DNA of 37,340 bases from a virus, in the IMG/VR virus record IMGVR_UViG_3300002460_000094, positions 1-37,340 of that record; one strand, written 5' to 3'. A model generated the notes under the pieces. That model worked only from the letters and a program-made list of their open reading frames with translations. It ran no database searches and was not told where the DNA came from. Shown here piece after piece: positions 11,415 to 35,967 of the stretch (within the stretch, counting starts at the first letter, position 1; each line of letters starts with the position of its first letter). Made by a program: the position numbers and the translations under genes.

Positions 11415-12362
11415 ATGGCCAAGAGGAAGGGAGCGGCAGTCGAAGCGACCGTGGACGACGACGCCCCGCTGCTGGTCGATGGCGCGGGTGCCGAGTCCAC
11501 CCCCGATGCCGTGCTCGTCGAAGAGCCGAAGACCTCGGCCGGCGACGAGCGCCCAGGGACCGGAGGCCAGCAGGACCAGCCCTCCGGAGACGGCAAGCCG
11601 GCGAAGGACCTCGAGGCCGAGAACGCGAACCTCAAGCGGGCGCTCAAGGAGCAGCGGAGGTCGGATCGTATTCGCCGCGACAGACTGGTGACGGAGCTCG
11701 AGTCCGAGCGCAACGCCAGGAACGCCGCCGACCGGCGAGCCGCCGAAGCCGCCGAGCTCAAGAAGGCCGACGCCAAGCTCGCCAGTCTCGAAGAGGTGGA
11801 GGATCTCCGCCATGCGGTGCCGATCATCCGCGACCACATCGACGAGACGCTCATCCAGCCGAGCATCGCCAACATCAGGACCCAGCAGCTTCGCATGAGC
11901 CAGAAAATGGCTCGGCGCGACCACGACGATTACGACGCGGTGTTGAAGGAATCGGGCGTGGAGGATGCCATCGCCCTCGATGCCTCGGGCAAGCCCAAGG
12001 ATCCCGTGCTGTGGCGGAAGATCATCCTCAATTCCGACGACCCCGCAGAGGACGCCTACCAGCTCGGACTCGCCGAACTTGAGCGCCAAGGGAAGCGCCC
12101 GCCGGCGGCCGAGCCGGACCCGGACGACGATACCGACATCTTGGACGAACCCGCGGGCGACCGGGCCGCCGGCCGCCGCGATGTGGTGGAACGACTCGAA
12201 CAGATCGGGCGCCGCCCCATGGGCATCCGCACGCTCACGGGACAGCGCGGCAGCGAGAGCACGACCCGCCTCACGCGGAAGAGGATCGACGCGATGAGCG
12301 AGGAGGAGTACGCGAAGCTGCCCGCTTCCGTGCGCGAGCAATACCTGATGGGGACGCCCTAG
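11415..12362 (+). CDS. Putative capsid scaffolding protein
   Basis: The gene lies between portal and major capsid protein, the standard scaffold position. The 315-residue product is highly charged and cysteine-free, with an acidic N-terminal third, a predicted coiled coil near residues 65-135 (LEAENANLKRALKEQ, ADRRAAEAAELKKA) and an acidic central region (EPDPDDDTDILDE). Scaffolds of this shape direct prohead assembly and are removed before packaging. ATG 11415 is preferred over the upstream GTG because GGGAGAGGGAG precedes it. Identification is by position and composition. Confidence 0.65.
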   Translation: MAKRKGAAVEATVDDDAPLLVDGAGAESTPDAVLVEEPKTSAGDERPGTGGQQDQPSGDGKPAKDLEAENANLKRALKEQRRSDRIRRDRLVTELESERNARNAADRRAAEAAELKKADAKLASLEEVEDLRHAVPIIRDHIDETLIQPSIANIRTQQLRMSQKMARRDHDDYDAVLKESGVEDAIALDASGKPKDPVLWRKIILNSDDPAEDAYQLGLAELERQGKRPPAAEPDPDDDTDILDEPAGDRAAGRRDVVERLEQIGRRPMGIRTLTGQRGSESTTRLTRKRIDAMSEEEYAKLPASVREQYLMGTP

Positions 12363-24318: not shown

Positions 24319-27300
24319 ATGGCGCTCCGCCTCGAGCTTGACTACCGGCCGGCCGAGGCGGAGGAGCAGCCCGCCGCCGACACATCGCTGTCGCTCGACT
24401 ACGAGCCGATCCCCGAGCCCGAGGACATCTCGACGCTTGCCCAGGTCCCGGGCGCCCTCAAGGACACCGCCGGGCAGGTCGGGGCTGTGCTCGCGTCGCC
24501 TGGCAAGGCTGTCGCCGATCTGATTCTGCACCCCACCGAGCCGGCCAAGGATCTCGGGCGCCGCGTAGTGGGGGCGGTCAGGGGAGCCGCAGAGGCCGTG
24601 CCGGCCGCCGTCGTCGAGATCGGGAAGGCGGCGGCACCGTTCGCGGCAGGGATTCAGACGGAACGGCAACCGCCAGACCGTGAATCCGTCACGGCCGAAG
24701 AGGTCGAGCGCCGAGCGGCAGAATCGCGTGCGCGCTTCGCCTCGACCCTGGGTCCGCCGCCACAGATCCCTGGTGCCCCCGACCCCCTGACGCAACCGGA
24801 GGCCTTCGCCGACTACGTGAAGGCAGGCCGCGGCCCTTCCGCTCAGGAGCGGGCTCGCGAGCACACTCGCCGGCGGCAGGCCGGTGAGGTTCCCTCCACG
24901 CCCGTAGAGCGTCTAGGCGATGTGCTCGTCGAGGCCCTGAAGAAACACCGCTACGTCGGCGACGTCGCCGGCGGCGCGTATTCGACGGCGCAGGGTGTCG
25001 CAGCCTCTCTGCCATGGCTCATGGGTACGGACACCGCAGTCGGCAAGATCGGCGAGGAGTTCGCCGCCAGGATCGGCGACGTCGTGGAGCGTCTCCAGCC
25101 GGAGGACCCGGGATTCTTGGACGCCCTTGCGGCCGGTTTCGGCTCCATGGCGACGTTCTTCATCCCGGGCGTAGCTTCGGCCAAGGCCCTGCAACTGGTC
25201 GCCAAGGCATCCCCGCGACTCGCGGCGTGGTCCGGAGCTGGCGTCATGGCTGTGATGGAGGCGGCGACCGAGGCTGGCTCATCGTTCGACCAGCTCGTCG
25301 GCGAGGGCGTTCCGGAGCCCGAAGCCGCGAGCCGGGCCAACCGAGTCTTCTGGCAGAACATGGTGCTCCTGTGGGTCACGAACCGCTTCGGCGTGCTGGC
25401 CGAGAAAGGTGGCGCCGTCGCTAAGACCCTTAAGGGTGCCGCGATGGAGGGGACGCAGGAGGCCGGCCAAGAACTGATCCAGATGGCGCAGGAGGGGGGC
25501 GTGACGACCCGCGGCGTCGTGGAGCGTGCCGCGACCCCGGAGGGTGCCAAGCGTGTCGCTACGGCCGGTGCCGTCGGTGTCATCGTGGGCGGCGTCGCTG
25601 GCGGCGGCAGGGCCCTAGTCGAGGGACGAGAGGAGGCGCCACCGCGATCCTTGCCGCCAAGCCCTCCGCCGCCTCCTGGGAGCGAGGAGCAGACCCGACC
25701 GGCACCGCCCACGAAGGTCGCCGAGGACGTGATCGCCAAAGCCAAGGAGGCGACGGCGCGCGCCGGAGCCGCCGTCTCTCGGATCGAAGACCTCGCCGCC
25801 AAGGCGGCTGAGCCCCCGCCGCTTGCGGTGTCGCCGCAGGAGGAGCCCGCGCCGACCCCGGAGGCCCCGGCGGTAGTTACCCCGCAAGTTCCCCCAGGTC
25901 CAATCGTCGAGATCCCGCGGCCCGGCGTCTCCGCCATCGAGCCGGGACAGGTCCAGGGGACTCTCGTGCCGCCGACACCGGACGAGACGGCGGCACTCGT
26001 CGAGCGGGCCAGGGAGTTGGTGGAGGAGATCGGCAGCGAGCCGCTGTCCTCGGACGCCGAGGCGCTGCCCGGCGTGCTCGAGCTCCGCGACCGCCTCCGT
26101 GGTCGCCTCGAGGAGCTTCCCCGAGACGCCCCGGAGCGCGCCGCAGTCGCCGCGGCGCTGGAATCGTTGCCGGTCGAGCAGGTGCGCGAGCCGCCGACCC
26201 CCAAGGGCATCCAGATCAGGGGCGGCAAGATCGTGCGTCCTGGGGCCCCCACGGGCCGTGTGGCCCCCGTTGTCTGGAGGGGCTGGCAGCAGGGCGTGGG
26301 CTCACAGCCGCCCGTGCCATTATGGAACCTCACGGAGGCCGTCGGGGACAAGCCTGCGGGCGACACGGTCTCGTCCGAGACGATCCGGAGGCTCGGCTTC
26401 GAGCCTCCAGTGCCACCGGAGCCTCCTCCAGCCACGCGCATCCGGATCGAGGGCGGCAAGGTCGTCAAGCCGACCGTCGAGACGGTGAGGACTCCCGCGC
26501 TGGAGGAGCCGCCTGAGATCACGGCGTCCGCAGGTCAGGTCGCGCCAGTCGTGGCGCCGCCAGGCCCAGAAGCCCCCGTCTTCGACAAGGACGCCGCCGC
26601 CGCCGCCCTGAAGCGCCTCCGGGAGAAGTTCAAGGCCGCGGGTATGGCTTTGGGCGGCGAGGGCGTGGACTTCTCCGTCATCCCCGACCTCGTGGCCTAC
26701 GGCGGGACGCTCTATGACGCCGGACTGCGCGACTACCCCGCGTGGTCGGAGCGGATGCTCGCCGACATCGACCAGAGCGTCGGCGATTACCTCGAGCAGG
26801 TGTTCGGCCTCATCAAGACCCACCACGCGAAGGTGACGGCGGCGCGAGCGCCACGAGGAGGTGAGACCCGTGCGGCTCCCGAAACGAGACCAGAACCCGG
26901 CCCGCCCGTCGGGCCTGAGCAGCCTGGGCCTCCAGATCAAGGACCACTGGAAACGCTTCCGCCCGGCGATGTATCGGGGGCTCCAGAAGGCGGGCGACCT
27001 GGACCGGAGCGTGCTCCAGGCGCAGAACCAGACCGCGGACGCGCTGGCGAGCCTGCTCCAGAAGGGGCTCCAGGAGAACCTGGCGTGGGAGGCGGTGAGG
27101 CAGGAGTGGGCCTTCCTGCCCTCGGAGAGAGAGGAGCCGAACCTGCCGAGGGGGCGGCAGCCGGGCGTCCCCCGCAGCCCGACCCTCGCTCCCGCACCGA
27201 GCCCCACCACCCCACCACCCCCGGCCGCGACTACCGCATCACCGACGCCGACCGGCTTGGAGAGGGCGGTCCCAAGGCGAAGTACCGGGCCAACGTCGCC

Positions 27301-30300
27301 GCCATCCGGCTTCTGAAGCAGCTCGAGGCCGAACAGCGCGAGGCCACCCCGGACGAGCAGGCCGTCCTCGTCAAGTACGTCGGCTGGGGCGGGCTGAAGA
27401 CCGTGTTCGACCCGACCCACGGGCGGTCGTGGGGGAAGAAGTCCGAGTGGGCGGACGAGCACAAGGAGTTGAGGGACCTCCTGGCGCCCGAGGAGTACGA
27501 GGCGGCCAACAAGACGGTCCTCAACGCCCACTACACGAGCGCCGAGGTGGTCAAAGCGGTCTGGGACGCCGTGACGCGCTTGGGCTTCACCGGGGGGCGC
27601 GTGCTGGAACCCTCTGCCGGCATCGGGCACTTCCTCGGGCTCATGCCGAACGAGGCCGCGGCAGCCTCGACGCGCACCGCCGTCGAACTGGACAGTCTGA
27701 CTGGGCGGATCCTCAAGAAACTCTATCCGCAGACCAACGTCAGAGTGGCCGGGTACGAGACGGTGCGGCTGCCCGACAACTTCTTCGACCTCGCCATCTC
27801 CAACGTGCCGTTCGGCGGGTACGGCGTCCACGACGGGACGGCCGCCGGGCGGCGCTACAAGAAGCTGGGCCTCACGCAGCTCATCCACGACTACTTCTTC
27901 GCCAAGTCCATCGACAAGGTGCGCCCCGGCGGCCTGGTGGCGTTCATCACGTCCACGGGGACGATGGACAAGCGGTCGCCCCACGTCCGGGAGTACCTGG
28001 CGCAGCACGCCGAGCTCGTGGCCGCGATCCGACTCCCCAACACGGCGTTCAAGGCGACGGCGGGGACCGAGGTCACGACGGACCTGGTGGTCCTCCAGAA
28101 GCGCGCCGCGCCGATCACGCTCGACCAGGCCCGGCTGCTGCCGTGGATGGAGTCCTCGCTCCGCGTGGTCGAGGGCTCGAACGTGCGGATGAACCGCTAC
28201 TTCGACGAGCACCCCGAGATGTTGCTGGGGACGCCGACCGTGGACGTGATGTACGCCCCCGGCGGCGAGCGGCAGGCCCGGGCCGGGCTCGCCACGGATG
28301 CCCGCGCGCTCCCGGACGCGCTCGCCCAGGTCATCGCCGGCCTGCCGGCGAATATCGTGACGCCCCTCGAACACCCGACGACGGATCCGAAGAACCCCAG
28401 GACCGATGACCTCGCGCCCCCCGAGGCCGGCCTCGCCAAACCCGACGGCTTCGTGCTCGGCAAGGACGGCAAGCTCTACATCTACAAGGTCGTCGCCAAG
28501 GGGAAAGAGCCCGTGATGACGCTCGCGGGCCTGGACCAGGGGCAGATCGAGCGGGTCAAGGGCATGATGGCGATTCGAGACGCCGCCCGCATGGTGCTGG
28601 TCCAGTCGAGGACGGGAACCGACGCGACGCTGGAGACGGCGCGGAAGATCCTCAACGGCACCTACGACACCTTCGTGAAGCGGTGGACCCGCCGCGGCAC
28701 CGTCCAGGGCAAGAAGAACGTCGTCATCCCGGGCTATCTGAACCAGCGCGAGAACGTCCGCGCCTTCCTCGGCGACCCCGACGGGTACTTCCTCATGGGG
28801 CTGGAGAAGTGGGATCAGGCGACCGGGGTGGCGTCCAAGACGGCCATCTTCAGCGAGCGCGTCATGCCGAGGGAGGGAGAGCGAGCTGTCTCTGCTGAGA
28901 CGGCTGAGCAGGCGCTCCTGATCTCCTTGAGCGAAACCAACCGAGTCGATTGGAGTCGGATGGCTGGGTTGACTGGCAAGACGCCAGAGGATCTTCAGGC
29001 CGGCCTCGGCGGCCGAGTGTACCGCAACCCGGAGGGGACGTGGGAGACGGACGATCAGTACCTCTCCGGCAACGTGCGCGAGAAGCTCGCAGCCGCCCGA
29101 GTCGCAGCCGAGTTTGATCCGGCGTATGCGCGGAATGTGACGGCGCTTGAGGCTGTGCAGCCCGAGGAGAAGCAGCCGCACCAGATCACCGCCACGCTCG
29201 GCGCCTCATGGATCGAGAAGGACACCGTGGCGCAGTTCGTCGGCTCGATCTTCGGCGTGAGTCAGACCCGCGTGGCCGTGGGCTACGCCGCTCCTATGAA
29301 CTACTGGAGCGTCAAGGTGGACGGCCGGACGACCTACGGCGGCTACCAGGCCACGAGCGAGTGGGGCACGGAGCGCGTCAACGGCGTCGAGCTCGTGCAG
29401 ATGGCGCTGAACCTCCAGGCGCCTGTGGTCTACGACAAGATGCCGGACGGCGGTCGCGTCCTGAATGTCGGCGCGACCGAGGCGGCCCGGAACAAGCAGG
29501 CTGCGGTCATGGATCGCTTCCAGGCGTGGATCTGGGAGGACACCGACCGCGCCGCAGCGATCGCCAAGGACTACAACGAGCGGTTCAATAGCATGCGCCT
29601 GCGGACCTTCGACGGCTCCCACCTCGAGATGCCCGGGATGTCGTCCGCCGTGACGCTCTACCCGCACCAGATGAACGCGATCTGGCGCGTCCTCCAGGGC
29701 GAGAATACGCTCCTGGCCCATGGCGTCGGCTACGGCAAGACCTACGAGATGATCGGTGCCATCATGGAGTCCAAGCGCCTCGGCCTCTCCAAGAAGGCCA
29801 TGATGGTCGTGCCGAACTCGATGGTCCAGCAAATCACCAACGACTTCTACAAGATGTACCCCGCCGCCAATCTCCTCGTTCCGGGTGAGGGCGACCTCGG
29901 CAAGGGCAAGCGCCAGACATTCATGACGCGCATCGCCACAGGCACCTGGGACGCCGTCATCGTGCCCCACAGCTCCTTCGGCCTGCTGCCGATGAGCACC
30001 GAGGCGCAGGCCTCCTTCATCCGCGAGATGATCGACGATCACAAGCGCGTCCTGATCGAGCTGGCGCTGTCGGAGGGCAAGAAGTCCCGGGTGGTGCGTC
30101 AAATCGAGGTGGCGCTCGCCCGGCTCGAAACCCAGCTCCTCGAGCTCCTGAGCGCGGAGACTAAGGACACGACGATCACCTTCGAGGAGCTGGGCGTGGA
30201 CATGCTCCTCGTGGACGAGGCGCACCGCTACAAGAACCTGCACACGGTCAGCCGGATGCGGAACGTCAAGGGGTTGCAGACCTCCAAGGCGAAGCGTGCT

Positions 30301-33300
30301 ATGGATCTGTACATCAAGACGCGCTGGATCACGCAGTTGAACGGCGGCCACGGCGTCGTTTTCTCGACCGGCACGCCGATCAGCAACACGATGGCCGAGA
30401 TGTTCACGCTCCTCCGCTATCTCGCCCCCCGGGTCATCAAGGAGCACGGCTGGAGCCACTTCGACGCCTGGGCGGGCACGTTCGGCAAGACGACGACCCA
30501 GGCCGAGATGACCGTAGCCGGCACCTACAAGGACTCGACGCGCTTCTCCGAGTTCGTGAACCTCCAGGGGATGCTGACGATGTTCCGGCAGTTCGCCGAC
30601 GTCCAGATGGACCCCAAGACGCTTGGGATTGATCTCGGGTTGCCCAGAGTACGCGGGGCGGTGCGTGAGGAAGACGAGGCGTTCGCGGCCATGACCCCCG
30701 GGCTGCCGCTACGGTATACCAGCGGGGCGCAGACGATCCTCTCGCCGATGTCGCAGGACCAGGTGGACTACATGGCTGCCCTGGCGGATCGGGCCGACGC
30801 GCTGGGCCACGTCGATCCGAAAGAGGACAACATGCTCAAGATCGGCACGGACGGGCGGAAGAACGCGCTCGACCCGAGGCTGGTCAACCCCAGGGCGGCC
30901 GAGAACCCGCAGAGTAAGGCGAACCTCGCCGTGGCCAAGGTCCACGAGATCTGGCAGCGCACGGCGGCCGACCGGAGTACGCAGCTTCTCTTCATCGACC
31001 TCTCGACGCCAAAGGCCAAGAAGGGCGCGGTCAAGGCTCCCTGGGAGATGACGCTGGAGAAGTTCGCCGCCACGCGGGGGATGAGCCCGGACGATGTTCG
31101 CGTCCGGCTCCTTCATGGGGTGGCCGTGCTCGAGGCCGTCCAGGCCGGCGAGCCCGTCACGCGCGCAGTCCTCTCCCCGCATTCCGACCTCCTCTTGGGC
31201 GACACGCAGCTCGCCCAGGAGTACAAAGAGGCCATTCGCGCCATCATGGAGGGCCGCCCGAACCCGATCCAGGCCGAGGTGGCGGACGAGGAGGAGTCGG
31301 AGGGCGACGAGGACACCTACGCCGAGACGCCCGAAGAAAAGGAGATGCGCCAAAGCGTCTACCATGAGATCCGGGCCAAGCTCATCCGGCTGGGGGTCCC
31401 GGACACAGAGATCGCCTTCGCCCACGACTTCAAGAAGAAGGCCGAGAAGCAGCAGCTCTACGACCGCGTGAACGCAGGCACCGTCCGCATCCTCCTGGGC
31501 TCCACGGACAAGATGGGGGAGGGCGTGAACGTCCAGAAGCGCCTGATCGCCCTCCACCACATCACGCCGCCGTGGAAGCCGGCCGAGATCGAGCAGCGAG
31601 ATGGGCGCATGGTGCGCCAGGGCAACGACAACCGCGAGGTCGAGATCTTCCAGTACGTGACGGAGGGGCAGGACGGCAAGATCAGTTTCGACTCCTTCAC
31701 GTGGCAGCTCCTCGAGAAGAAGGCCAGCTTCATCAAGCAGGCGCTCAGCGGCAAGATCTCCGAGGACACCGCCGAAGACGTGGGCGAGATCATCTGGGAC
31801 CCCGCCACGATCAAGGCCCTATCCACTGGCAACCCGCTCATCATCGAGCTCGAGGACGCCAAGGGGGAGTTCCGGCGACTCGGTGCCGTGCGCTCAGCGT
31901 GGGAGAACACGCGCCAGGCCAACAAGTACCGAATGGCGCTGCATGAGACGTCGATCAAGGCCCACGCCAGCCAAGTGGCCGAGCTCGAGGCCGACATCGC
32001 CGCGAGGGACGCGACTGCCGACCAGCCCTTCCGGGCCGTCGTCCAGGGGCAGGAGTACACGATCGGCGAGGGCCAGACGCGCAAAGAGCTCGTGGAGCAG
32101 GTGAATGCGCGCCTTGAGGCTGCGGTGAAGTCCGTGCCGGCATGGTCCGTCGTCAACGCGGCGCCCAAAGAGATTGGACAGTACCGCGGGCTGCGCCTCG
32201 AGGCGAGCTCGCACGATGGGTTCACGGTCGTCCTATCGCTCGCTGGTCGCGGGCGTCACACGATGGGCGTCCCATCCATCGCCAGCGCCGACGCGATCCT
32301 GCGCGGGCTGGACTCGACGCTCGTGACGGTGCGGTCCATCCTCACGGAGAAGCAGGCGCAGATCGCCGGCCTCCAGGCCGAGGTCGCCAAGCCATTCCCG
32401 CAGGCGGCGCGGCTCGCGGCGCTTCAGAAGCGCATCCCCGAGATCGAGGCCGCGCTGGGAATCAAGAAGGGCACGGCCGTCGGCCAGATCTTCACGGAGC
32501 AGGAGGCCCAGGGGGACCAAGGGGCCGAGGAGGGCGGGGCCAGCAACTTCGAGGTGGCCGTGAGTCGCATGGCCACGAGGCTCATTCGGACCGCCACGGC
32601 AGCGGCCCCCTCGACGACGGCGGCGCCCGCCGGGCCGCTGTCCCGCAAGGACGAGATGATTCGCGACCTCGGCGACGCGCTCCGGCGCATGGGGGTAGGC
32701 CAGCTCACGCTCGCCGGGGGGATCCGCAAGCTGAAGGGGTTCCTCGGCCAGTACAGCCACTTCACGGGCAACACCCGGATGAAGCAGATCACCGACGTCG
32801 AGACCTTCGCGCACGAGACGGGGCACCGCATCATGCGCGCGCTCGGGATCGGCTACCGGGAGCTCACGCCATTCAAGCGGGAGATGAAAGCACTGACGAG
32901 GCTCCTGGGGGTCAAGGGGCCGCCGATGACCGAGGGGTTCGCGGAGTTCACCCGGCTCTACCTGAACGATCCGGCCCAGGCGCAGGCCGTGGCCCCGACC
33001 TTCTTCCCGTGGTTCGAGGCGAGGCTCAGCACCCTGCCCGACCTCCGCGCGCCCCTGCTCGAGTTCCAAGCGCGCGCCGGTGCCCTCCGCGGGGCTCCGC
33101 TGCGCGAGCGGGCGCGCGCGGCCATCGCCCTCCGTCCGCGCGAGGGACTCGCGCTGCGAGAGCGGGGGCGCGAGGCGCTCTCGAACTTCGTCCAGGGGCT
33201 CTGGGACAGCTCCCTGCCGCTCAAGCAGATCCTCAAGGAGGCGGACCTCGCCGAAAACCTCCGCGCGGGCCGCGACCCCTACAAGCTGCGCCGCACCCTG

Positions 33301-35967
33301 ACGGCCAGAGAGTTCCACGCCTTCCGTAACTTCATCGGCTACCGTTCTCTCGTCTTGGAGCGCGACCGCATCCGTGGCGGCGTCGTCAGGTGGGAGGATC
33401 GCTCCGTCGTGCCGGGGTCCAAGGCGCTCACCGAGATCGTGGAGCCGATCTGGGACGTCAGGGACGACTACCAAACCTACGAGGTGCTGCGGCGCATCCA
33501 GTACCTTCGCGACAGCCCGAAGGAGCGCCACCGCTCGGCCGCGCTCCACCTGAAGACGCTCATGGAGGTCAGAGCCGACACCGAATTGGACTCGTCCGTC
33601 CGGGATTACGAGCGGGACTTCCCGACATTCTCGCGAGTGCTCGACGACCTTCAGACGTGGAACGACGGCCTGCTCCAATACCTGGAGGACTCGGGGGCCT
33701 ACGCGCCCGACGTCATCCAGGCGATCCGCGACGCGAACGAGGTCTACGTGCCGCTCCACCGCCTCATGGACGACACGGCGCTGAGTGATGCGGCGCGGGC
33801 GGCTGGGGGGGCGAGACCCCTCAAGGGGATCAAGGGGACCAGCGAGCGGATCGTGCTGGCACCGCTCCAAGAGCGGATGGCCCAGGCTCAAGCGATCGTG
33901 CGGGCGGCCGAGAGCAACGCGGTCAACCAGGCGCTCGCCGACATCATCCTACCCAGTGACGGCTCGCCGCCCCACGCCCAGCTCGGCCAGTGGATGGACA
34001 AGGTCCCGAAGCCGCTGGAGGCGTTCAGTTTCGACTTGGAGCGGATTCGGCGCGACCTCGAGGCGGCCGTCGCGGCCTCGATCCCGGACGCCGCGGGGCG
34101 CCACGCCGCGCTTGAGGTGCTGAAGACGCTGGACCTCTCGCGCGTCGCCACCGTGTTCTCCCCAACGATCCGCCATCTGCCCCGCGACCACGTCGTCATC
34201 TGGCGAGCCGGCACACCAGAGGTGTGGCAGGTCCACGACAGCCGTCTGCTCCGGATGTTGCAGCACCTCGACCGGACGGCCCTCGCGAACTTCGTCCGAG
34301 GTACGGAGGCTATCTGGCAGGTCCTCCGTGGCTCGGCGAGGCTCCTGCGGGCCGGGATCACGACGAACCCCAACTTCTGGTTCCCCAACATGGCGCGCGA
34401 CCAGCAGGAGGCCCTGCTCCAGAGCCGCGGCATCCTGCCGCCCTATCTCAAGGGGATCCTGGCGATCTGGAGTGATCCGCAGACAGTGGAGCGGTTCATG
34501 GCTGGCGGCGGGCTCATGTTCAACATCACGGCGATCGACCGCGAGACGGCTGAGCGGAACCTCGCCGACGTCATCGAGGGCCACTGGCGCAAGGGGGGGC
34601 GCCTCCGGGGCGCCCTGGCCTTCCTTGAGGAGCTGGGGGAGCTCTCGGAGATGCCGACGCGGATCGGCGTGGCTAAGACCGCCATGGAGGCGCCGCGCGC
34701 GCTGGACGTAGATCCCTTCTCGCAGACCGTCCAAGCCGCCTACGAGGCCCGGGAGTCGTCGATCGACTTCGGGCTGTCGGGCGACGCGCCAGGCTGGAAC
34801 CTCTGGGTCCAGGGCGTGCCCTTCCTGCGCGCGTCGCTGAACGCGATCTACCGTGAGGCGCGCTTCCTCAAGGCGGCGTTCGTCCCCCGCGCGCTCGGCG
34901 GAAACTTATGGGGCAAGGAGACGGCGCGGGTGGCGATCCTCGGCGGCCTCATGGTCGTGCTGGAGGCGCTCCTCTGGCTCAACAACAAGGACGACCCCAG
35001 GTGGAAGGAGCTCACGAACCTCGACCGCACGCTCAACTGGATTTGGATTACGAACCCGGTGACGCCCGAGGCGTGGAGGAACATGAGTACGGAGCAGCGG
35101 GCCGCGCTCGGCGGGCCCTGGAAGATGCCGCGCCTCTACCTCTACGGGTTCCTGTTCGGGGCGCTGCCGCAGCAGCTCTTCGAGTGGGGCGAGCAGGACG
35201 GCTCACTGTCCCCCAGCAGACTGCTGGAAAGTTTCGGTCTGGCGACGGGCCTCGGACCCTCTGGCTGGTTCAATCCCTTGCTCCGGACCAGCGGCGAGGT
35301 GGCCACCGGCTACGACCTCTACCGCGGCCGGCCCATCGAGCCTCGGAGCCTTGAGTACCTCCCCACCGAGCAGCGGGCCACCTCCACGACCTCGGACGTC
35401 GCCAAGAAGCTCGGCCAGACGGCGGTCGCCAAGGCGCTGGGGCTCAGCCCGATCAAGCTGGACTTCATCGCGCGCGGTCTCTTCGGCCACTGGACGGGCA
35501 CGGTGACGAGCGCCGCCGACGCCTTCACGGACCTCGTCGAGCGTCGCCCGGCGCAGCCCGAGTGGACGGCGTCGGACTACATGGTGCTGCGGCGCTTCAC
35601 CACGCGCTGGCCGTCGTCGGGCGCCCAGTCGATCCAGGAGTTCTACGACGCCTACCAGCAGAGCCGAGAAGCCGCGCGCGGCCTGTTGGACCATCTCCGC
35701 CAGGGGCGCTCAGCCCCGGAGATCGAGGAGTTCCGGGCGACGCACGCCCTCGAGCTTGACTGGTGGCCTCGGCTGGACGCGCAGGCTCGCGGGCTCTCCG
35801 AGCGGACGCGCCGCGCCGAGGCGATCCGCACAGATCGCGACATGACGCCAGCCGCCAAGCGGCGAGCCATCGACGCGCTCGTCATGGAGAAGATCGACCG
35901 CGCGCGCGCGCTCGTGGACGAGCTGCGCGCCGCACGCGCCAAGCCTGCGACAGCGGCACCTAGATGA
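24319..35967 (+). CDS. Giant polyvalent protein, DarB-like (methyltransferase-helicase-zincin)
   Basis: The 3882-residue protein has: a membrane-active N-terminus (Gly/Ala-rich hydrophobic segments, residues ~200-430); a Pro-rich linker; a small helical polyvalent domain (~755-840); a low-complexity linker (~850-960) overlapping another gene; an N6-methyltransferase-like domain with VLEPSAGIGHF (~1095) and SNVPFGG (~1160); a SNF2-like helicase with HGVGYGKT (~1797), DEAH (1966-1969), STGTPISN, MGEGVNVQKR (~2398) and QRDGRMVRQGN (~2424); coiled coil (~2600-2750); a zincin with HETGH (2832-2836) and EGFAEF (E2872); and a C-terminal helical region with a hydrophobic segment near 3537. It fits phage 'large polyvalent proteins' related to P1 DarB, carried in virions and ejected to block restriction. 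It occupies the T7 gp16 position. Confidence 0.85.
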   Translation: MALRLELDYRPAEAEEQPAADTSLSLDYEPIPEPEDISTLAQVPGALKDTAGQVGAVLASPGKAVADLILHPTEPAKDLGRRVVGAVRGAAEAVPAAVVEIGKAAAPFAAGIQTERQPPDRESVTAEEVERRAAESRARFASTLGPPPQIPGAPDPLTQPEAFADYVKAGRGPSAQERAREHTRRRQAGEVPSTPVERLGDVLVEALKKHRYVGDVAGGAYSTAQGVAASLPWLMGTDTAVGKIGEEFAARIGDVVERLQPEDPGFLDALAAGFGSMATFFIPGVASAKALQLVAKASPRLAAWSGAGVMAVMEAATEAGSSFDQLVGEGVPEPEAASRANRVFWQNMVLLWVTNRFGVLAEKGGAVAKTLKGAAMEGTQEAGQELIQMAQEGGVTTRGVVERAATPEGAKRVATAGAVGVIVGGVAGGGRALVEGREEAPPRSLPPSPPPPPGSEEQTRPAPPTKVAEDVIAKAKEATARAGAAVSRIEDLAAKAAEPPPLAVSPQEEPAPTPEAPAVVTPQVPPGPIVEIPRPGVSAIEPGQVQGTLVPPTPDETAALVERARELVEEIGSEPLSSDAEALPGVLELRDRLRGRLEELPRDAPERAAVAAALESLPVEQVREPPTPKGIQIRGGKIVRPGAPTGRVAPVVWRGWQQGVGSQPPVPLWNLTEAVGDKPAGDTVSSETIRRLGFEPPVPPEPPPATRIRIEGGKVVKPTVETVRTPALEEPPEITASAGQVAPVVAPPGPEAPVFDKDAAAAALKRLREKFKAAGMALGGEGVDFSVIPDLVAYGGTLYDAGLRDYPAWSERMLADIDQSVGDYLEQVFGLIKTHHAKVTAARAPRGGETRAAPETRPEPGPPVGPEQPGPPDQGPLETLPPGDVSGAPEGGRPGPERAPGAEPDRGRAGEPAPEGAPGEPGVGGGEAGVGLPALGERGAEPAEGAAAGRPPQPDPRSRTEPHHPTTPGRDYRITDADRLGEGGPKAKYRANVAAIRLLKQLEAEQREATPDEQAVLVKYVGWGGLKTVFDPTHGRSWGKKSEWADEHKELRDLLAPEEYEAANKTVLNAHYTSAEVVKAVWDAVTRLGFTGGRVLEPSAGIGHFLGLMPNEAAAASTRTAVELDSLTGRILKKLYPQTNVRVAGYETVRLPDNFFDLAISNVPFGGYGVHDGTAAGRRYKKLGLTQLIHDYFFAKSIDKVRPGGLVAFITSTGTMDKRSPHVREYLAQHAELVAAIRLPNTAFKATAGTEVTTDLVVLQKRAAPITLDQARLLPWMESSLRVVEGSNVRMNRYFDEHPEMLLGTPTVDVMYAPGGERQARAGLATDARALPDALAQVIAGLPANIVTPLEHPTTDPKNPRTDDLAPPEAGLAKPDGFVLGKDGKLYIYKVVAKGKEPVMTLAGLDQGQIERVKGMMAIRDAARMVLVQSRTGTDATLETARKILNGTYDTFVKRWTRRGTVQGKKNVVIPGYLNQRENVRAFLGDPDGYFLMGLEKWDQATGVASKTAIFSERVMPREGERAVSAETAEQALLISLSETNRVDWSRMAGLTGKTPEDLQAGLGGRVYRNPEGTWETDDQYLSGNVREKLAAARVAAEFDPAYARNVTALEAVQPEEKQPHQITATLGASWIEKDTVAQFVGSIFGVSQTRVAVGYAAPMNYWSVKVDGRTTYGGYQATSEWGTERVNGVELVQMALNLQAPVVYDKMPDGGRVLNVGATEAARNKQAAVMDRFQAWIWEDTDRAAAIAKDYNERFNSMRLRTFDGSHLEMPGMSSAVTLYPHQMNAIWRVLQGENTLLAHGVGYGKTYEMIGAIMESKRLGLSKKAMMVVPNSMVQQITNDFYKMYPAANLLVPGEGDLGKGKRQTFMTRIATGTWDAVIVPHSSFGLLPMSTEAQASFIREMIDDHKRVLIELALSEGKKSRVVRQIEVALARLETQLLELLSAETKDTTITFEELGVDMLLVDEAHRYKNLHTVSRMRNVKGLQTSKAKRAMDLYIKTRWITQLNGGHGVVFSTGTPISNTMAEMFTLLRYLAPRVIKEHGWSHFDAWAGTFGKTTTQAEMTVAGTYKDSTRFSEFVNLQGMLTMFRQFADVQMDPKTLGIDLGLPRVRGAVREEDEAFAAMTPGLPLRYTSGAQTILSPMSQDQVDYMAALADRADALGHVDPKEDNMLKIGTDGRKNALDPRLVNPRAAENPQSKANLAVAKVHEIWQRTAADRSTQLLFIDLSTPKAKKGAVKAPWEMTLEKFAATRGMSPDDVRVRLLHGVAVLEAVQAGEPVTRAVLSPHSDLLLGDTQLAQEYKEAIRAIMEGRPNPIQAEVADEEESEGDEDTYAETPEEKEMRQSVYHEIRAKLIRLGVPDTEIAFAHDFKKKAEKQQLYDRVNAGTVRILLGSTDKMGEGVNVQKRLIALHHITPPWKPAEIEQRDGRMVRQGNDNREVEIFQYVTEGQDGKISFDSFTWQLLEKKASFIKQALSGKISEDTAEDVGEIIWDPATIKALSTGNPLIIELEDAKGEFRRLGAVRSAWENTRQANKYRMALHETSIKAHASQVAELEADIAARDATADQPFRAVVQGQEYTIGEGQTRKELVEQVNARLEAAVKSVPAWSVVNAAPKEIGQYRGLRLEASSHDGFTVVLSLAGRGRHTMGVPSIASADAILRGLDSTLVTVRSILTEKQAQIAGLQAEVAKPFPQAARLAALQKRIPEIEAALGIKKGTAVGQIFTEQEAQGDQGAEEGGASNFEVAVSRMATRLIRTATAAAPSTTAAPAGPLSRKDEMIRDLGDALRRMGVGQLTLAGGIRKLKGFLGQYSHFTGNTRMKQITDVETFAHETGHRIMRALGIGYRELTPFKREMKALTRLLGVKGPPMTEGFAEFTRLYLNDPAQAQAVAPTFFPWFEARLSTLPDLRAPLLEFQARAGALRGAPLRERARAAIALRPREGLALRERGREALSNFVQGLWDSSLPLKQILKEADLAENLRAGRDPYKLRRTLTAREFHAFRNFIGYRSLVLERDRIRGGVVRWEDRSVVPGSKALTEIVEPIWDVRDDYQTYEVLRRIQYLRDSPKERHRSAALHLKTLMEVRADTELDSSVRDYERDFPTFSRVLDDLQTWNDGLLQYLEDSGAYAPDVIQAIRDANEVYVPLHRLMDDTALSDAARAAGGARPLKGIKGTSERIVLAPLQERMAQAQAIVRAAESNAVNQALADIILPSDGSPPHAQLGQWMDKVPKPLEAFSFDLERIRRDLEAAVAASIPDAAGRHAALEVLKTLDLSRVATVFSPTIRHLPRDHVVIWRAGTPEVWQVHDSRLLRMLQHLDRTALANFVRGTEAIWQVLRGSARLLRAGITTNPNFWFPNMARDQQEALLQSRGILPPYLKGILAIWSDPQTVERFMAGGGLMFNITAIDRETAERNLADVIEGHWRKGGRLRGALAFLEELGELSEMPTRIGVAKTAMEAPRALDVDPFSQTVQAAYEARESSIDFGLSGDAPGWNLWVQGVPFLRASLNAIYREARFLKAAFVPRALGGNLWGKETARVAILGGLMVVLEALLWLNNKDDPRWKELTNLDRTLNWIWITNPVTPEAWRNMSTEQRAALGGPWKMPRLYLYGFLFGALPQQLFEWGEQDGSLSPSRLLESFGLATGLGPSGWFNPLLRTSGEVATGYDLYRGRPIEPRSLEYLPTEQRATSTTSDVAKKLGQTAVAKALGLSPIKLDFIARGLFGHWTGTVTSAADAFTDLVERRPAQPEWTASDYMVLRRFTTRWPSSGAQSIQEFYDAYQQSREAARGLLDHLRQGRSAPEIEEFRATHALELDWWPRLDAQARGLSERTRRAEAIRTDRDMTPAAKRRAIDALVMEKIDRARALVDELRAARAKPATAAPR
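26870..27316 (+). CDS. Overprinted gene inside giant-protein linker
   Basis: A second frame within the giant gene has AGGAGGTGA (26856-26864) five bases before GTG 26870. Over the first ~95 codons only about five end in A or T, whereas about 53 of 96 codons of the giant frame do, reversing the usual pattern. The product looks like a real small helical protein: IKDHWKRFRPAMYRGLQKAG, VLQAQNQTADALASLLQKG, EAVRQEWAFLPSE. It recalls small phage/transposon-associated (TnpV-like) proteins. After about residue 92 it becomes Pro/Ser/Thr-rich while the giant frame regains coding character, so only the N-terminal two thirds may matter. Function unknown. Confidence 0.65.
   Translation: MRLPKRDQNPARPSGLSSLGLQIKDHWKRFRPAMYRGLQKAGDLDRSVLQAQNQTADALASLLQKGLQENLAWEAVRQEWAFLPSEREEPNLPRGRQPGVPRSPTLAPAPSPTTPPPPAATTASPTPTGLERAVPRRSTGPTSPPSGF

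Follow-up and report, generated by a model that had tools for sequence, protein, structure and literature searches.

Genes nested inside other genes are known in phages, as in the spanin genes Rz and Rz1 of phage λ, where a small gene lies wholly inside another in a second frame. We describe here a comparable arrangement in a 37,340-base virus record (IMG/VR record IMGVR_UViG_3300002460_000094), the whole of which is called the window. A small gene is embedded in the linker of a giant gene for a DarB-like polyvalent protein, and the embedded product coded there is referred to as the window nested protein. A pair of the Rz/Rz1 type is also carried by the Bcep22-like phage JC1 (PMC9144972). The nested family differs from Rz/Rz1 in that it shows no sign of a lysis role and has a giant enzyme gene as its host.

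In actinophage methylase genes, an out-of-frame open reading frame (ORF) for an HNH homing endonuclease (the ShiLan domain), published in 2025, is hidden in an in-frame insert (PMC11855218). The two cases are alike in that a second-frame gene is hidden in an in-frame segment of a phage DNA-methylase gene; the present family, however, is a different protein, lacks an endonuclease, is near-universal rather than patchy, and is vertically inherited. In phage P1, the protein Ulx “aids DarB localization” (PMC9024508). Here too the gene of a small protein lies beside a gene of the DarB-type methylase–helicase, but it is a separate downstream gene whose product has no detectable sequence likeness to ours. 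TnpV of Tn4451-type elements belongs to the same superfamily as the nested phage relatives; it is known as an ordinary free-standing gene, whereas the relatives are nested and the window member is too diverged for the TnpV model. No description of a TnpV gene nested in another gene was found in the papers searched.

As a whole, the evidence makes it probable that the embedded frame is a real and ancient nested gene, and that its product, a small helical partner of the TnpV superfamily, is made by internal initiation. That the nested gene is functional is close to certain.

Two frames over one linker

The preliminary description of this DNA placed a start at GTG 26870, after AGGAGGTGA, and gave a GC content at third codon positions (GC3) of about 95% over 95 codons for the embedded frame, against about 45% for the giant frame. 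Both the GTG and AGGAGGTGA are seen in the sequence, the former five bases past the latter and 8 nucleotides past its core AGGAGG, and no stop interrupts the frame between 26837 and the TGA at 27314–27316. Over the 95 codons from 26870 to 27154, GC at codon positions 1, 2, and 3 is 0.716, 0.453, and 0.947 in the embedded frame and 0.947, 0.716, and 0.453 in the giant frame. The 95-codon segments of the giant gene have a mean GC3 of 0.885 (standard deviation 0.081) and a minimum of 0.442 at 26854; those below 0.6 start only within 26779–26959, the sole such dip in the gene. Past about 27155, where GC3 is 0.868 in the giant frame and 0.774 in the embedded frame, the composition belongs to the giant frame again. 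Therefore, only the first ~95 codons are gene-like, and the last ~50 amino acids are an unconserved tail. The earlier figure of a 148-residue product is correct for the ORF but overstates the conserved part, which covers only about residues 15–86. ORF length alone is weak evidence, as the window holds 131 ORFs of at least 90 amino acids. At 69% GC, nothing can be read from the window's own open frames; its evidence lies in codon-position composition and homology, and these lift the frame above chance.

Homologues of the embedded product, a matter left to be checked earlier, are numerous. A tblastn search with the embedded product found 13 phage records, at 29–39% identity and each under an annotated giant gene, and a search with a relative's sequence found 21. 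Phages with the embedded product include Vibrio VvAW1, Sinorhizobium PBC5, Ochrobactrum POI1126, Erwinia Stean, Pavtok, and PEp14, Klebsiella LASTA and SopranoGao, Pseudomonas Itty13, Agrobacterium Atu_ph08, and Microcystis Mwe-JY07. Scans of IMG/VR and GTDB add about 60 loci, giving about 70 with the same domain of ~75 amino acids; the single window sequence, searched directly in viral contigs and plasmids, gave no match. Wherever the methylase domain is present, the nested domain is in the +1 frame relative to it. The low-complexity linker occurs at the same place in the DarB-like relatives, as the preliminary description had it, and no relative has stops in the embedded frame, the giant frame being open across it as well. 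The third frame is closed in most loci, by up to 9 stops. A chance ORF is ruled out by the homology and the substitution pattern. So is a frameshift introduced by sequencing or assembly, as about 70 loci of different origin agree and only in PBC5 is the upstream frame shifted. In no annotated phage record examined is a separate gene marked for the nested product. In Itty13 (L045), the annotation of the giant region consists of three hypothetical proteins on the opposite strand and includes neither the giant nor the nested gene.

How general is the nesting? In an unbiased set of 80 giants, gathered by their methylase domain without use of the embedded gene, the nested family is present in 57 at E < 0.01. 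The TnpV profile raises this to 69, all +1, and in none of the 80 does the family lie in another frame upstream of the methylase. In ten of the remaining 11, a diverged +1 ORF occupies the corresponding site; L101 is the sole giant with nothing convincing there. The overall tally of +1 and +2 ORFs at the site, 77 versus 6 of the 80 giants, is supportive only. A +1 ORF also occurs at this place in Bcep22-like phages, Pseudomonas USP_25, Pseudoalteromonas Y7, and Bacteroides BKO1-TP3; the profile link to the nested family reaches 7e-7 for USP_25 and is weak for the Bcep22-like pair. The earlier observation was thus right, and it is more general than first proposed.

Four of the ten diverged ORFs, those of L138, L155, L161, and L163, form a second nested +1 group together with Pseudomonas phage 8P, which lies outside the set. 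Its motif, ‘..TEIANRWxxGWPxxVxxLIxxGxYLExL...HExAELYGLSxxPP’, is found in L138, L155, L161, L163, and L075, and the group is perhaps a very diverged relative of the family.

Substitutions among relatives bear on both frames. In 15 pairs of relatives, the counts at giant codon positions 1, 2, and 3 are 328, 207, and 168 in the overlap and 349, 266, and 1150 downstream; for the pair L001/L014 they are 16, 5, and 1 versus 5, 0, and 63. Position 1 of a giant codon coincides with the third position of an embedded one, so the pattern in the overlap is that of a gene read in the embedded frame. Selection on that frame had been suspected from composition, and residue differences in the overlap of the 15 pairs bear it out: 269 in the embedded product against 443 in the giant protein, the linker residues changing more. 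As for the giant frame, its probability of being open, if the nested protein is held constant and its codons are sampled at local frequencies, is 5e-6 for L015, 5e-5 for L001, 8e-5 for L064, and 3.5e-7 for L078; the product over 46 loci, 1e-78, is an over-count, as the loci are related. The nested frame is under purifying selection and the giant frame is preserved. The pair therefore constitutes overlapping genes in the usual sense, one ORF lying wholly inside another in a different frame with both under selection. The divergence of the nested gene tracks that of the methylase domain (Mantel rho 0.53, 0 of 1000 permutations), which supports long vertical co-inheritance.

Among 46 non-redundant loci, the nested start codon is ATG in 43 and GTG in 3. 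The mean pairing energy with the anti-Shine–Dalgarno tail of 16S ribosomal RNA is −6.8 kcal/mol at the nested starts of these loci and −2.7 kcal/mol at 1350 control ATGs (p 6e-21). In L004, L006, L007, L034, and L071, the nested frame is closed two codons upstream of the start, so that a frameshift into it would have little room. Judging from these sequences, internal initiation is the simplest reading of the nested start, and a very likely one. Could ribosomes on the giant frame nevertheless shift into the nested frame and make a shorter protein ending in the helical domain? PBC5, as deposited (NC_003324), has just such a form, with the upstream part and the domain in one frame and a 2180-amino-acid protein that ends with the domain. 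However, PBC5 is exceptional: a single frameshift upstream would account for the frame in which its linker continues, and the nested domain and the methylase domain stand in their usual relation again. Given also the conserved Shine–Dalgarno site and ATG or GTG, the existence of stand-alone copies, and the two open codons in the five loci just named, we regard frameshifting as very improbable.

A PHROG ‘endolysin’ match (phrog_938, positions 2094–2164) was considered as a sign of lysis and rejected; the label belongs to a family of long proteins, and its profile ends like the PBC5 fusion protein. The match probably stems from that fused protein (L002, NC_003324).

The host gene shares the window with terminase, portal, and internal virion genes. 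Its order is an N-terminal part, the low-complexity linker, an N6-methyltransferase/SNF2-type helicase part, and LPD38, with Pfam matches to SNF2-rel_dom, ResIII, Helicase_C, and LPD38. It carries the methylase–helicase core of a DarB-like PHROG family (phrog_10089, 1575 bits). A giant of this kind is a virion protein, as it is among the structural proteins of JC1 (PMC9144972). The features are collected in Table 1.

Table 1. Positions of the giant gene, the nested gene, and their parts in the window.
Feature	Coordinates	Strand	Remarks
Giant DarB-like polyvalent gene	24319..35967	+	3882 amino acids, 11.6 kb; PHROG DarB-like antirestriction, full-sequence E reported as 0
Low-complexity Gly/Pro/Glu/Ala/Arg linker of giant protein	26848..27228	+	mostly the other reading of the nested gene
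Shine–Dalgarno AGGAGGTGA of nested gene	26856..26864	+	read from sequence
Nested gene	26870..27316	+	+1 frame versus giant gene; GTG start, TGA stop 27314–27316; 148 amino acids
Conserved helical TnpV-like domain of nested product	26912..27127	+	about residues 15–86; sequence alignments
C-terminal tail of nested ORF, Pro/Ala/Ser/Thr-rich, unconserved	27155..27313	+	composition follows giant frame
Conserved start of methyltransferase–helicase part, DYRITDADRLGEGG...	27229..28218	+	aligns with N-terminus of stand-alone Bacteroidota methylase–helicase

A helical, TnpV-like product and its possible role

The preliminary description held that the product looks like a genuine helical protein, and the AlphaFold2 prediction agrees with it. 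A confident helical domain is modelled for the window nested protein, with predicted local distance difference test (pLDDT) scores of 92–96 over residues 21–80 and helices at 15–30, 32–41, 44–64, and 69–81; the nested protein of L020 is likewise predicted to have a helical domain, with pLDDT 92–97 over residues 1–70. Foldseek gave no significant match for the nested product in the PDB and one in the viral library, Q8W6J4, presumably the PBC5 protein. The nested family had no match in PADLOC.

The kinship with TnpV is traced stepwise. Of 38 members, 26 have a match to the Pfam TnpV model (PF14198) with E no higher than 0.1, a weak one (best value 2.9e-7), and the nested ORFs of L112 and L137 pass its cut-off (44.8 and 46.2 bits versus 27). 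In profile comparisons, the family matches L112/L137 at 97%, and these match free-standing Firmicutes TnpV at 97.5%. Because it is linked only through such intermediates, the window protein is called TnpV-like and not TnpV. The nesting itself recurs with TnpV: on a Subdoligranulum plasmid, a TnpV gene with its own Shine–Dalgarno site lies nested in the +1 frame of a gene for a 1989-amino-acid SNF2-methylase (L172: ATG 11956–12300), and six more gut-type giants have a nested +1 TnpV (L078, L090, L095, L097, L100, and L160). In the gut-type giants, TnpV lies 1.4–2.8 kb upstream of the methylase domain. In L079, it is locally +1 again, with a frameshift further downstream.

Two relatives stand outside giants in other ways. 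In Corticibacter populi, a free-standing 99-amino-acid gene (L051:4977-5276) has no giant, and its other frame is readable as a relic of the linker; this is apparently a captured or decayed locus that kept the nested gene. In Pseudidiomarina sediminum (L056:4959-5747), the domain is the N-terminus of a 262-amino-acid protein with a C-terminal membrane-like segment. Its neighbours are a PD-(D/E)XK-like gene and a McrB/McrC-like pair; the opposite strand carries an XRE-type regulator.

What would such a product do? By our proposal, a ribosome would bind the internal Shine–Dalgarno site and start at GTG 26870 to make the small helical TnpV-superfamily protein; for ribosomes on the giant frame, the same bases would encode a loosely constrained linker. 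One mRNA would thereby give two products, the giant of the virion and a small helical protein started within it. Made in cis, the latter may help to fold, target, or restrain the methylase–helicase, in a manner comparable with P1 Ulx beside DarB. It is tempting to see in it a dedicated partner of the methylase–helicase module, as a chaperone, a virion-targeting factor, or a brake on activity; we hold this view tentatively, at slightly less than an even chance. It is favoured because small proteins couple to this type of enzyme in three ways, namely the nested TnpV-like product, the upstream DUF1896 protein, and Ulx beside P1 DarB.

The DUF1896 protein (PF08989) enters the comparison as 2apl, the solved structure that best matches the model (Z 7.4, 63 residues, root-mean-square deviation 2.2), a Z that helical folds can reach by chance. 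The DUF1896 gene stands immediately before the methylase–helicase gene in 29 of 29 Bacteroidota loci, and the ATG of the latter lies 14 nucleotides before the end of the former in every case (29/29, including L174, L175, L176, and L177–L199). This overlap is a probable translational coupling of an unstudied pair. DUF1896 resembles the nested family in its position before the methylase–helicase and may do so in fold; it differs in overlapping the methylase start by only 14 nucleotides, and in a relative frame of +2 versus +1 in the phages. The N-terminus of the Bacteroidota methylase–helicase corresponds to the start of the conserved region that follows the nested gene in phages. Because this N-terminus is encoded directly behind a small gene of perhaps similar fold, it is plausible, on position and structure, that an upstream ORF became joined to the methylase–helicase by reading through a small partner gene. 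The preliminary description had offered a long-lived overlap or a small gene trapped when two ORFs fused. The long life of the overlap is upheld by its presence in very diverse phages and by its correlated divergence with the methylase domain; the trapping is plausible, not proven.

Competing explanations

Several readings have to be set beside this one. The nested frame might be a selfish mobile gene settled in a permissive linker, like the HNH homing endonuclease of the ShiLan domain. The published ShiLan architecture is the same (PMC11855218), and TnpV is found in transposons, with a postulated role in excision (PMC3158075). Yet no endonuclease domain is found in any of the 38 members, as judged by their Pfam and NCBIfam matches. 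Nor is the distribution patchy, with 69 of 80 giants positive and a diverged ORF in 10 of the other 11, and the divergence that follows the methylase domain is what vertical descent predicts. A selfish gene is accordingly very unlikely. Another possibility is that the nested gene alone counts, the open giant frame across it being an accident of high GC and the two halves of the giant separate genes. In the window, the giant frame is open by chance with a probability of 0.43 when the nested protein is fixed, and the linker residues are poorly conserved. The AT-richer relatives, however, keep the giant frame open at odds of 1e-4 to 1e-7 each (L001, L015, L059, L064, L078, and L095), and the accident becomes very improbable. 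The main functional rival to a partner is a real nested gene with an excisionase-like or regulatory DNA-binding product, unrelated to the giant's activity. Some nested relatives belong to TnpV, for whose Tn4451 form a resemblance to lambda Xis led to a postulated role in excision (PMC3158075), and the solo copies L051 and L056 lie near genes of XRE-type regulators. A product of no service to the giant gene would hardly account for nesting that is nearly fixed in one type of gene, in phages as well as gut elements, and no DNA-binding fold is prominent among the structure matches, a weak list. We therefore consider a DNA-binding or excision role unlikely on balance.

Several further observations, like the excision postulate and the chance of 0.43 just given, weigh against the nested TnpV-superfamily partner that we prefer, or weaken a part of its evidence. 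Given the giant residues and codon usage, the +1 frame of the window is open with a probability of 0.73. The window has no close relative in the loci gathered, so the substitution test excludes it, and no Pfam TnpV match is listed for its nested protein. As independent evidence the +1 phase is weak: the nested codons themselves entail stops that usually close the remaining frame. Solitary TnpV genes are found outside giants too, in L171, in L173, and after a recombinase gene in L172. DUF1896 and the nested family align by hhalign with a probability of 0.1, equal to that of shuffled controls, and P1 Ulx was rejected as a homologue, being absent from the matches of the family profile at E up to 10. 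The argument for a partner would thus be drawn from gene position, the middling fold match, and analogy.

Implications for DarB-like polyvalent proteins

No description of nested or overlapping genes in DarB-like or other polyvalent phage proteins was found in the open literature, subscription journals being largely outside the search, and a survey of polyvalent proteins mentions neither TnpV nor an overlap (PMC5512222). The nested arrangement thus appears to be undescribed. What is new with respect to known nested genes is the protein family, its near-fixed presence, its vertical inheritance, and its spread across phages and mobile elements. It may be, and we judge the matter evenly balanced, that a TnpV-superfamily partner nested in the +1 frame is a general and ancient part of DarB-like/SNF2-methylase polyvalent genes, in phages and in Firmicutes-type elements, and that the linker exists largely to read through the partner gene. 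If so, few overlapping gene pairs would be as widespread in tailed phages, and this one would have escaped notice because nested ORFs are discarded by gene callers.

The large polyvalent proteins that phages and conjugative elements deliver to the host are under active discussion, and their low-complexity linkers are as a rule passed over. Bcep22-like phages are reported to be without the P1 accessory proteins (PMC9144972). The nested product is a candidate small component of DarB-type antirestriction, and the overlap, which is unusually old, offers a chance to learn how an existing gene acquires a second reading.

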